A stretch of DNA of 27,276 bases from a virus, in IMG/VR virus record IMGVR_UViG_3300046167_000378, positions 1-27,276 of that record; one strand, 5' to 3'. A program made the translations under genes and the position numbers. This document shows positions 1-4,873 of this stretch, piece by piece (position 1 is the stretch's first letter; the number at the start of each line of letters is the position of its first letter). The notes under the pieces were generated by a model. The model had not been told where the DNA came from, ran no database searches, and saw nothing but the letters and a program-made list of their open reading frames with translations.

Positions 1-471
1 GATCAGCTCACCTTCAGCTTCATCATTTGCAGCTCGTTCTGACATCTTACCTGCCGAGGTCAGTACCTTTTGCAGCTCAGTTTCCAGACTCCACCCAGCA
101 AAGGGCTTGATAGGCTTAAGGCTAGACCACACTAGGTCTTTAGCAGTCTCAAAGCTTTCACCTGCCAACTTGCGGATAGTAGTACGATCAGGTGCCTCTG
201 TGAACCCGTCTTTAGTGGCCTTAAAGCCCATAAGAGAGAACCATTCGGCAATAGCAGCAGTGTTAGCACCTTTAGCAGCCTCGACAACTCGGTTAGCACG
301 TGCTACAGCGGTAGGTCGATCACCACTCTGGTATGCACAGAATACAACAGAGACTAACGCGATTTGAGTTAGCTTCTCGGCTTTCTGCCAGCTATCGGCC
401 ATGTTCTCAATACACTTGTCAGCGTTGTTGAGAGTCTTAGGGTTCCATCGGATTTTAAGTTCATTTGGCAT
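1..471 (-). CDS. Phage protein of unknown function, C-terminus beyond left edge
   Basis: An open frame of 157 codons runs from an ATG at 471 to the first base of the window without a stop, so the gene is partial. The start is supported by GGAG about 9 bases upstream on the minus strand (TGGAGTTACAAATTATG). The protein opens MPNELKIRWNP and is a mostly helical, soluble-looking sequence with no membrane segment or signal peptide. The order of features (an alanine-rich helix, then FCAYQSGDRPTAVARANR, then an EWFSLMGF block and a KPIKPFAGW block) recalls an uncharacterised protein family found among early genes of T7-like phages. That resemblance is from memory and weak. It points away from the structural genes and so probably belongs to an early or middle transcription block. 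No function is assigned. Confidence 0.75.
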   Translation of the reverse strand, partial: MPNELKIRWNPKTLNNADKCIENMADSWQKAEKLTQIALVSVVFCAYQSGDRPTAVARANRVVEAAKGANTAAIAEWFSLMGFKATKDGFTEAPDRTTIRKLAGESFETAKDLVWSSLKPIKPFAGWSLETELQKVLTSAGKMSERAANDEAEGELI

Positions 472-750: not shown

Positions 751-781
751 TATATATTGCGGAGTGCCAATCCAGAAACTC
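751..781 (-). repeat. 30-bp element, copy 1 (possible phage promoter or regulator site)
   Basis: The plus strand reads TATATATTGCGGAGTG followed by CCAATCCAGAAACTC. It shares the blocks ATATT(A/G)CGGAGTG and (A/G)AAACTC with the copies at 815, 877 and 2108. It is drawn on the minus strand because in that direction each copy ends with a TAATAT/CAATAT hexamer resembling a -10 box and points at a minus-strand gene; the orientation is inferred. Confidence 0.6.
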
Positions 782-812
782 TCGCGGCTTTGTATCTCCT
801 TTGTTGTCTCTC

Positions 813-863
813 TCATATATTACGGAGTGCATTCCCAAAAACTCTGTGGTCTGTGGTCTGCAT
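813..863 (-). CDS. Possible 16-aa leader peptide inside the repeat array
   Basis: On the minus strand AAGGAG (874-869) is followed after 5 bases by ATG and 16 sense codons (MQTTDHRVFGNALRNI), then TGA. The start signal is good but the frame is very short and passes through a repeat element. The next repeat unit has the matching AAGGAG block (801-796), but the aligned triplet is AAG instead of ATG. It may be only a by-product of the repeats, or a leader for the downstream minus-strand gene. Confidence 0.2.
   Translation of the reverse strand: MQTTDHRVFGNALRNI
815..844 (-). repeat. 30-bp element, copy 2
   Basis: The plus strand reads ATATATTACGGAGTG then CATTCCCAAAAACTC. Its invariant CGGAGTG begins 63 bases after that of copy 1 and 62 bases before that of copy 3, about six helical turns apart. 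On the minus strand the element is followed by a purine-rich AAGGAG block (801-796). Confidence 0.6.
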
Positions 864-876
864 TGTTTCTCCTTCT

Positions 877-906
877 GTATATTACGGAGTGGGTATCCAA
901 AAACTC
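877..906 (-). repeat. 30-bp element, copy 3
   Basis: The plus strand reads GTATATTACGGAGTG then GGTATCCAAAAACTC. On the minus strand it is followed at once by AAGGAG (874-869) and ATG (863-861), opening a 16-codon frame that ends at 813 inside copy 2. Together with copies 1 and 2 it forms a tandem array of 62-63 bp units. Confidence 0.6.
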
Positions 907-1131: not shown

Positions 1132-1974
1132 TTACTTCGCGATACGGTTACGGGCTGGGATAGACTGAGTCAATCGAACAGCTATCTCGTAACGGTCATC
1201 GTCATTGATGGAGTGATCAGCTTGCTTACTAATCCAATTAACCTTGGGCAGTGTTGGCATAGCCGCCAACTTAACTGGGCCGACAAAGGTGTAAGTAGAC
1301 TTGGCTTGCTGGCTCAGGTCAATTGAGTGACGAGTGATACGAGGGCATTGATTCATTGGGACAATCTTATGCTTCACTCTGATTTGTGGCTCTGAGTCTG
1401 ATTGTTCCAGACTTACTTGCTCAGTGTAGCGGGCATTAACTTTAGCCAGTGTCGTAGGACGCAGTGACTTAGGTATCCTGCCCTTGTCGTCTTTCAGGAA
1501 CGCAAGCGCATGCCCTTTACCCACTACTGTAGAACCATAGTTGGCCATGCCTTTGTAGGTGATAACGTCATGACTGTAGGCCACCTGATTCACGCTATCG
1601 TAGCCGTGGACGGTAGTTGTTACTGGGTCAAGGTACTCACCTTTCAATCGAGCTTCACGCACTCTGAATTTCTCTGCATCAAACCTAGTACCTTCTTTAA
1701 CAAAGCGTCCAAACTCCTTTGATTCAGTAAGCGGCTTCTCCCAGTGTGCATCGTGCAAACAGTTTTGATACGAGCGCAGATCAATATCTCCCATATCAGT
1801 TCCTTCAATCCACTCTGCAATATCATCCGTCATGGGAGTGAAATAGCCCTCTTGAATGCCATAGTCCACTTCCGGACAAGGCGTTTTCTTTTTCAGGTCA
1901 GCTGCATGCTGCTCCATCCATTGCTTAGCTTCTAGTTCTTTAGCGGCTTTGAATGCTTCGAATTGCTTGTTCAT
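1132..1974 (-). CDS. Phage protein of unknown function, 280 aa
   Basis: A 280-codon frame starts at ATG 1974 (MNKQFEAFKAAKELEAKQWMEQ) and stops at TAA 1134-1132. An in-frame TTG at 1989 would add MRIII, but the ATG with its stronger N-terminal helix is preferred; neither has a good ribosome binding site (only GAGAA). The N-terminal ~40 residues are a charged helix. The middle is acidic and aromatic (EGYFTPMTDDIAEWIEG), and residues from about 110 onward look beta-rich with many Thr, Val and Lys. No membrane span, signal peptide or recognised catalytic motif was seen. It stands alone between two long repeat-rich gaps, and a Fur-box-like sequence overlaps its start codon. I do not recognise the family. 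Confidence 0.75.
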   Translation of the reverse strand: MNKQFEAFKAAKELEAKQWMEQHAADLKKKTPCPEVDYGIQEGYFTPMTDDIAEWIEGTDMGDIDLRSYQNCLHDAHWEKPLTESKEFGRFVKEGTRFDAEKFRVREARLKGEYLDPVTTTVHGYDSVNQVAYSHDVITYKGMANYGSTVVGKGHALAFLKDDKGRIPKSLRPTTLAKVNARYTEQVSLEQSDSEPQIRVKHKIVPMNQCPRITRHSIDLSQQAKSTYTFVGPVKLAAMPTLPKVNWISKQADHSINDDDRYEIAVRLTQSIPARNRIAK

Positions 1975-2018: not shown

Positions 2019-2037
2019 CAAATGGCATAGCCATTTG
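2019..2037. promoter_or_regulatory. Operator-like palindrome CAAATGGC-ATA-GCCATTTG
   Basis: Perfect 8-bp half-sites (2019-2026 and 2030-2037) surround a 3-base centre. It lies 45 bases upstream of the start of the 1132-1974 gene, where a repressor would cover a promoter or early transcribed leader. A half-site-like AATGGCATTT recurs at 2061-2070. The binding protein is unknown. Confidence 0.5.
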
Positions 2038-2107: not shown

Positions 2108-2136
2108 TCTATTACGGAGTGGATACCCAGAAACTC
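2108..2136 (-). repeat. 30-bp element, copy 4
   Basis: The plus strand reads TCTATTACGGAGTGG then ATACCCAGAAACTC, matching the three tandem copies at 751-906. This solitary copy is 134 bases upstream of the other minus-strand gene. The association of the element with both leftward genes supports a promoter or activator role read on the minus strand. Confidence 0.6.
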
Positions 2137-2507: not shown

Positions 2508-2536
2508 TTGACTTTCTTTTAAAAATATGGTACAAT
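2508..2536 (+). promoter_or_regulatory. Sigma70-type promoter for the rightward genes
   Basis: TTGACT (2508-2513) and TACAAT (2531-2536) are separated by exactly 17 bases, matching the bacterial consensus at five of six positions each. The surrounding DNA is very AT-rich, with A-tracts upstream that could act as an UP element. Initiation would fall near 2543, giving a leader of about 160 bases before the first packaging gene. This implies that host RNA polymerase can read the rightward operon. Confidence 0.75.
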
Positions 2537-3052: not shown

Positions 3053-3617
3053 AGTAGTAGTAGAGGGGCGTAGGAAGGGCGTTAAGCAAGCTGACAGACC
3101 CCTAAATGAGGTTGAGAACTACCTGCTCGGGACTATGGACTTAACCCCTGAGGTTGTCAAGGGTAACCTTAAGGACTTCTATCATCGTATGGGAGACATG
3201 GAGTCAGATAACAACCCACAGGCTAGTGCGAAAAGCAGTTCAGCCAAGGGCGTGTATCAGTATCTAAACGAGAACAAGAAGAACGGACTTGGATCAAGTT
3301 TCCAAGTTGCACTGAACAGAACAAAGCGAGCATATGAGAAGGCTGGCTTCGATGCACCTAGTTGGATCAAAGAGGCTCACAATCACGAAGACCCTCGTAA
3401 GCTAACACAGGAGCAATCGGATACGTTGATGCTCTCTGACCTGATGCTAGGGCCTAAGCCTGTTAGTGCTCCACTGGCACAGTACCTGATCAACGGTCAG
3501 GCACAGCCTAAGCACTTGCATGACGTGTACAAAGAGCACCACACAGACGTAACCAATACCGCTGAACAAGGCGATGTACTGGGTCGTATGAATGAGAGAC
3601 TAGGCATACCGCTATGA
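3045..3617 (+). CDS. Probable muralytic protein (SLT/lysozyme-like), 190 aa
   Basis: ATG 3045 is preceded by GGAGG. Residues about 48-75 read MGDMESDNNPQASAKS followed by SSAKGVYQYL. This fits the lytic transglycosylase pattern of a catalytic Glu in ES-x-NP-x-A followed by a Ser/Ala-Gly-x-Tyr-Gln block. A later LTQEQSDTLMLSDLMLG helix and a YKEHHTD motif are also like those in virion-associated lysozymes. There is no signal peptide or membrane span, so it would need a holin for lysis or be carried in the virion to pierce peptidoglycan at infection. It lies between the small and large terminase genes and overlaps the latter by 4 bases (ATGA). Phage T7 likewise places a lysis gene (18.5) between its terminase genes. 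Enzyme class is inferred from motifs; substrate is untested. Confidence 0.55.
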   Translation: MREVVVEGRRKGVKQADRPLNEVENYLLGTMDLTPEVVKGNLKDFYHRMGDMESDNNPQASAKSSSAKGVYQYLNENKKNGLGSSFQVALNRTKRAYEKAGFDAPSWIKEAHNHEDPRKLTQEQSDTLMLSDLMLGPKPVSAPLAQYLINGQAQPKHLHDVYKEHHTDVTNTAEQGDVLGRMNERLGIPL

Positions 3618-4873
3618 AGCTAGACCTCTCCCTGCTCCCGTGGCAGCTTGAAGTTATGGCTGAACCTGAGCGATTCAAGGTTATTGGTGCTGGACGTAGA
3701 ACAGGAAAGAGTCACCTAGCGGCTGTAACATTGGTTCTAGCAGCCCTAGATGATAAGCCGGGTAAGGTGTTCTATGTTGCCCCTACACAGGGGATGGCTA
3801 GGGACATTATGTGGGATAAACTGTACGAGATTGCTGGTGATATCATTGAAAGCCACAATATCAACAACCTCACACTCACGCTGACCAACGGAGCCACCAT
3901 ATACTTGAAGGGTGCAGATCGTCCAGATACTCTTCGAGGTGTCTCCCTTAAGCACCTTGTGTTGGACGAATACGCTTTCATGAAACCTGATGTCTTCGAC
4001 AGCATCCTTCGTCCAACCCTATCCGATAGGAAGGGTACATGTATCTTTATCGGGACACCCGAAGGAAGGAACCACTTCTACGACCTCTACGAGAGGGCTA
4101 AGAGTGGGACAGACGAAGGATGGGGTGCATGGCACTACACGTCTTACGATAACCCTACAATGGATAAGGAAGAGGTAGATCACGCTAGAGCTACCCTCCC
4201 TAACTGGGCCTTCCAGCAGGAATACATGGCCTCCTTCAGTGCTCAAGGTAGCGAACACTTTGACGTAGATCACTTCAACTACTACGACAAGTTAGACAAG
4301 ACCGTTCCCGGAGACTTCTTCATAGCAGTGGATTTGGCTGGCTTTGAGGAGAAGAAGGGCAGTAAGACTGCCAAACGAGACAACAGTGCTATAGCTTGCG
4401 TCTACGTCACAGATGACGGGGACTGGCATGTTGAGGATATCATCTACGGTAGGTGGACACTGGCAGAGACAGCAGAGAAGATATTCGCTGCTGTCGAGAA
4501 GTACAGGCCACAGAGCATAGGGATAGAGAAGGGGTTGGCACAACAGGCCGTTATGCAACCTCTACAAGACCTTATGCGCCGTACTAGCCGTGTATTCAGG
4601 ATTGAGATGCTGAGTCACGGTAATACGAAGAAGACAGACAGAATACTATGGGCCTTAGCAGGCAGATTTGAGAACGGGTTTATTAACCTCAAGCAGGATA
4701 AACGATGGAACCTAGCCTTCATAGATGAGGCCAGTAACTTTCCCTCTACTCTGGTACACGATGATTTGATTGACGCTCTTTCCTATGTTGATCAGATGGT
4801 AACCATCCCGTACAGGTCAGAGATGGATTTTGACACTGACTGGGAACCACTTGACGCAATTTCAGGATACTAG
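3614..4873 (+). CDS. terL: Terminase large subunit (packaging ATPase-nuclease)
   Basis: The 419-aa protein pumps DNA into the prohead and cuts the concatemer. The ATPase shows Walker A at residues 25-33 (GAGRRTGKS), Walker B with hydrophobics before D118-E119 (LVLDEYAFM) and a coupling motif IGTPEG near 146-151. The RNase H-like nuclease follows: D240 in FFIAVDLAGF, E305 in IGIEKG and a C-terminal LVHDDLIDALSY with acidic residues. The length is typical of compact podophage terminases. The start overlaps the stop of the muralytic gene (ATGA). The spacing to the portal is two bases, so portal and motor are probably translated together. All catalytic motifs appear intact. Confidence 0.95.
   Translation: MKLDLSLLPWQLEVMAEPERFKVIGAGRRTGKSHLAAVTLVLAALDDKPGKVFYVAPTQGMARDIMWDKLYEIAGDIIESHNINNLTLTLTNGATIYLKGADRPDTLRGVSLKHLVLDEYAFMKPDVFDSILRPTLSDRKGTCIFIGTPEGRNHFYDLYERAKSGTDEGWGAWHYTSYDNPTMDKEEVDHARATLPNWAFQQEYMASFSAQGSEHFDVDHFNYYDKLDKTVPGDFFIAVDLAGFEEKKGSKTAKRDNSAIACVYVTDDGDWHVEDIIYGRWTLAETAEKIFAAVEKYRPQSIGIEKGLAQQAVMQPLQDLMRRTSRVFRIEMLSHGNTKKTDRILWALAGRFENGFINLKQDKRWNLAFIDEASNFPSTLVHDDLIDALSYVDQMVTIPYRSEMDFDTDWEPLDAISGY

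Follow-up and report, generated by a model that had tools for sequence, protein, structure and literature searches.

A four-copy repeat upstream of leftward phage genes as a possible early transcription element

Transcription control is unknown for most uncultured phages. An unfinished virus record offers a clean case in a four-copy noncoding element without relatives, and it raises the question of what such an element does: does it start or activate transcription of the genes beside it, does it serve another function of a control region, or is it a repeat without function? We addressed this question in the window, by which we mean the whole stretch of DNA analysed, 27,276 bases of a record from which most of the early gene block is absent.

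The repeat and its genomic setting

Two leftward genes occupy the left end of the window. The first (1–471, minus strand; 157 codons) runs off the contig and belongs to phrog_1448, a family of unknown function, with relatives at 27–37% identity in phages of Gammaproteobacteria. The second (1132–1974, minus strand; 280 codons from an ATG at 1974) falls into no family and has weak relatives at the same place in two related records, L001 and G009. When the two genes were searched against viral contigs no relatives were found, and the L001 gene recovered only itself. Rightward genes start at 2702, where the gene is by its position a probable small terminase, and include the large terminase (3614–4873), portal, capsid and tail proteins. 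These packaging and structural genes are preceded by a strong predicted sigma-70 promoter (TTGACT-17-TACAAT; 2508–2536, plus strand), which is conserved in L001 and exemplifies the ordinary promoter of this phage, unlike the element considered here. In their other gene block, longer relatives encode DNA polymerase A, a helicase-primase and a ribonucleotide reductase. The leftward block is therefore probably early, and gene order suggests that the two leftward genes form part of such a block in a podovirus-like phage.

The element has the consensus TATTRCGGAGTG-N5-CCNRAAACTC as written on the plus strand, and its four copies share one orientation. On the minus strand it reads GAGTTT-N16-YAATA(T/G). 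Copy 1 (755–781, minus strand; GAGTTTCTGGATTGGCACTCCGCAATA) is nearest the left gene, which starts about 280 bases downstream, copy 2 (818–844, minus strand) lies 63 bases from copy 1, and copy 3 (880–906, minus strand) lies 62 bases from copy 2 and is followed on the minus strand by AGAAGGAG-AAACA-ATG. Copy 4 (2110–2136, minus strand) stands alone, with the ATG at 1974 about 136 bases downstream of it. The start-to-start distances are thus 63, 62 and 1230 bases. After copy 3 the minus strand also offers a good ribosome site and a 16-codon frame, which may be fortuitous.

The repeat is real. The pattern TATTRCGGAGTGNNNNNCCNRAAACTC has exactly four matches in the 27,276-base window, each with 0 mismatches; no further copy appears in the window at up to 3 mismatches, and 100 dinucleotide shuffles gave 0 matches. 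A weight matrix built from the four copies scores them at 48–51 bits and the next-best window site at −2, about 50 bits lower, so there are no degenerate extra copies in the window. These searches bear out the four copies and the 63/62 phasing described in an earlier sequence-only reading, but not the length of 30 bp given there: the element spans 27–28 bp, of which 22 positions are essentially fixed across the copies and 5 bases form a variable centre. Its conserved block is asymmetric, as expected for a directional element. Copy 1 closes with the −10-like CAATAT, copies 2 and 3 with TAATAT and copy 4 with TAATAG, so the TAATAT/CAATAT ending once assigned to all copies holds for copies 1–3 and fails for the solitary one. 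All four copies are intergenic and upstream of the window's two leftward gene starts, three before the left gene and one before the 1132–1974 gene, in agreement with the position and direction first described.

Promoter comparisons and the sister phage

No known family tested explains the repeat. Against a sigma-70 matrix whose scores serve as a relative yardstick only, the four copies score 2.2–4.9, where the background has its median at 3.4 and its 99th percentile at 9.4. A scan of the window for sigma-70 sites found none at the four copies, which have no −35/−10 pair at 15–19 spacing that rises above local background. Because their scores lie at background, the copies are not recognisable sigma-70 promoters, and since no copy rises above that background the −10-like TAATAT cannot alone carry a promoter claim. 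The element does resemble the sigma-70 early promoters of phages in pointing leftward, lying before early genes and having a −10-like hexamer with a 16-base gap to a conserved block; it differs from them in that its GAGTTT shares one position with TTGACA and in the long conserved stretches within the spacer. It is likewise similar to T7-type promoters in being repeated, intergenic and about 23–28 bp long, but the central positions, those most constrained in a T7-type promoter, are the five bases that vary freely here, which fits the earlier statement that the copies do not match T7, T3 or SP6 promoters. No single-subunit (T7-type) RNA polymerase was found in 20 records, in a search whose controls were equally silent and with the early region of this phage absent; relatives show polymerase A, helicase-primase and ribonucleotide reductase, but no RNA polymerase.

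Two conserved blocks separated by a fixed 16-base gap are also reminiscent of promoters read by phage-encoded or ECF-type sigma factors, but we know of no consensus of such promoters that matches the element. Among the records searched, a sigma-like protein that matches both region 2 and region 4 occurs only in a distant relative, G023 (TerL 48%), and none was found in the incomplete window or in nearer relatives. The G023 protein is small (L137 1456–1971) and lies just downstream of DNA polymerase. Readings as sigma-54, flagellar-sigma or MerR-type spacer-dyad promoters were dropped after comparison by eye. A CRISPR array was also rejected: there are three tandem units, the repeat has a variable centre, and no cas gene is present among the window genes examined.

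The sequence-only reading had looked to relatives for further copies of the motif, and here it went unsupported. Related large terminases are encoded on 281 candidate stretches in viral contigs, five of them 97–99% identical, yet the element is missing from all 27 related records that we searched for it. Exact and loosened patterns run over IMG/VR, a search from which very near records may be left out, returned chance single hits only, mostly within genes, and the array gave chance matches only against phage and plasmid records. The nearest sister, L001 (TerL 99%), aligns with the window across 1960–2700 with a gap of about 22 bases exactly at copy 4. Outside this gap it retains a Fur-box-like palindrome at the start codon and a leader hairpin. 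(L001 1–40 resembles an Illumina adapter, ACACTCTTTCCCTACA, and the first bases of that record are probably an artefact.)

What L001 has in place of copy 4 is a leftward sigma-70-like site, TTCAAA-17-TATCAT, whose score of 10.5 exceeds the 99th percentile of background. In the leftward intergenic region of L001 three sites score at least 10, where 0.48 are expected and 1.3% of shuffles reach three; the window's two leftward intergenic regions hold zero. This pattern suggests that promoter modules have been swapped between the two phages, and there is moderate evidence, drawn from this comparison of sequences, that the element stands in for sigma-70 promoters. Promoter replacement between such close relatives is directly testable.

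Repeats and palindromes around the element and in related phages

Other members of the group carry repeats of their own. In G009 (TerL 67%), a palindrome, TGAGAAC-N-GTTCTCA, followed by ACGCCATAG, stands before most leftward genes, close to their start codons (L016 2649–5341; G009 22882–30492). In the early region of G004 (L100 158–13487) the palindrome TCTATAACTAATTATAGA recurs about ten times at dispersed positions, some just before ribosome sites and some within genes, and a perfect 16-bp palindrome, TTGCGTGTACACGCAA, occurs at four early-region places in L070 134–2760. Phage-specific repeated control sites thus seem usual in the early regions of this group, although the sequences themselves differ between the phages.

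Directly upstream of copy 3 are four Fur-box-like palindromes (909–927, 944–962, 986–1004 and 1022–1040). A further one, CATGATAATGATTCTCAAT (1972–1990), overlaps the start codon at 1974, and its 15-base core is identical in L001. The palindromes are 19 bp long and close to GATAATGATAATCATTATC, with 12–16 of 19 positions matched, and the four matches compare with 0.06 expected. A weak leftward sigma-70-like site, CTGTCA-16-GATAAT (1053–1026), has a −10 that box 4 overlaps. No Fur gene was found in the phage group, in a search whose controls were positive. The palindromes could be operators, decoys for host Fur or sites of DNA entry. Noncoding DNA of Phapecoctavirus, T5-like (Demerecviridae) and Roseobacter phages contains arrays like this one, in several cases with boxes phased at 29 or 35 bases, and the presence of such arrays in unrelated phages raises the question of whether many phages bind or titrate the host iron regulator. 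In several T5-like phages the Fur-like array is found within the terminal repeat or close to it, accompanied by DnaA boxes and a further direct repeat; in L131, L135 and L136, several same-orientation copies of the direct repeat TGTCGGATTTGCACAT adjoin the Fur-like array and DnaA boxes.

On the other side of copy 4 from the 1132–1974 gene, the window has a triple 19-bp iteron-like repeat, GTTTCAATCAGGCTGTACT (2183–2238), which is partly kept in L001 (about 500–545) and is a possible origin.

Possible roles of the element

We tentatively favour the reading, with a probability of roughly 0.43, that the element is a phage-specific early transcription element, either a promoter or an activator site, that requires a non-sigma-70 factor. 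From the sequence we infer that it drives transcription, in which direction, and through what kind of factor. As a promoter it would consist of a −35-like GAGTTT, 16 bases and a −10-like YAATAT; as an activator site it would hold a protein that recruits RNA polymerase to a weak −10. The element is unlike a sigma-70 promoter and would therefore have to rely on something besides the host housekeeping sigma, either a phage factor or an alternative host sigma. With three copies spaced at six helical turns before one gene and a single copy before the other, there might be multiple or cooperative starts, and the adjacent Fur-box-like palindromes would form a separate operator layer.

The new promoter type or activator sites proposed in the sequence-only reading are in keeping with the position and direction of the copies, but the sigma-70 scores at background and the lack of the element in all relatives searched speak against them. 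Indirect support comes from the sister's sigma-70-like leftward site where the element is missing, and also from the different repeated element that G009 carries before most of its leftward genes, which indicates that dispersed phage-specific control elements are normal in the group. Against a role in transcription count the absence of the element from every relative searched, the sister included, which leaves no cross-phage conservation, and the spacing between copies and start codons, which at 136 and about 280 bases is long compared with that in G009. A sigma-like protein in the distant relative G023 alone also counts against it, and any stretch of the genome coding for a partner factor would lie outside this record. 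Copies 1–3 may moreover be duplications of one another and so not independent. A more elaborate version strikes us as improbable: the element would form its own promoter class, recognised by a sigma-like or activator protein that the phage encodes in its unsequenced early region, and its union with the Fur-box array would make the early genes responsive to host iron status.

The main rival is a repeated protein-binding site in a non-transcriptional control region, serving replication origin, DNA entry or packaging; we consider it rather unlikely. The element shares its place between the early and late gene blocks with iterons and Fur-like palindromes, and the 1.7 kb around it also holds the triple iteron and hairpins. 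In the corresponding intergenic region, where early genes adjoin late ones, G009 and G012 have tandem DnaA-box-like 11-mers, CCTGTGGATAA/CTGTGGGTATC (L016 6481–6560; L021 2381–2447). The T5 injection stop signal is described as containing multiple repeats, palindromes and DnaA boxes (PMC13250531). It is this description, together with the terminal-repeat noncoding region of T5-like phages, where such a palindrome array is paired with the non-palindromic repeat TGTCGGATTTGCACAT and DnaA boxes, that gives a non-transcriptional role its place as main rival. The likeness to the T5-like region lies in a Fur-like palindrome array adjoining non-palindromic direct repeats in long noncoding DNA; the repeat sequence differs, however, the phage is podovirus-like, and there is no evidence for two-step DNA entry. 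A control region of this kind also fits poorly with an array placed between two leftward genes and not in the divergent region, with both copy groups lying upstream of leftward genes, and with a sister that is without copy 4 but retains its surroundings.

The roughly 22-base block missing from the sister at copy 4, like the tandem arrangement of the other three copies, would also be expected of a functionless repeat spread by duplication or insertion, whether as a small mobile element or as a product of recombination. We nonetheless think this improbable, because the array units have diverged in the sequence between them but hardly at all in the 27-base core, and because there are no terminal inverted repeats, no copies within genes and none elsewhere in the viral contigs searched. 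Least probable of all, in our estimate, is a role at the RNA level, in which the element would work within the leader of a longer leftward transcript, for instance as a site of antitermination or RNA binding. The weak sigma-70-like site upstream of the array (1053–1026) could supply such a transcript, and a small GAGU/ACUC hairpin is possible in copies 1 and 3, but minus-strand folding z-scores range from −2.0 to +1.0 between copies, the inner pairs are not kept, and nothing in Rfam matches.

An Rfam search was empty and a tRNA search found none. Between copy 4 and the 1132–1974 gene lies the leader hairpin mentioned above (2019–2037, minus strand), with an 8-pair stem and a 3-base loop; its stem is kept in L001 (about 360–380) through a paired, compensating change. 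Farther right, near the small terminase gene, window positions of about 2285–2310 hold a G-run followed by TGCCACT and a CTTG-AAA-like sequence. This stretch is conserved in L001, L008, L009 and L012 and is a possible packaging or end site.
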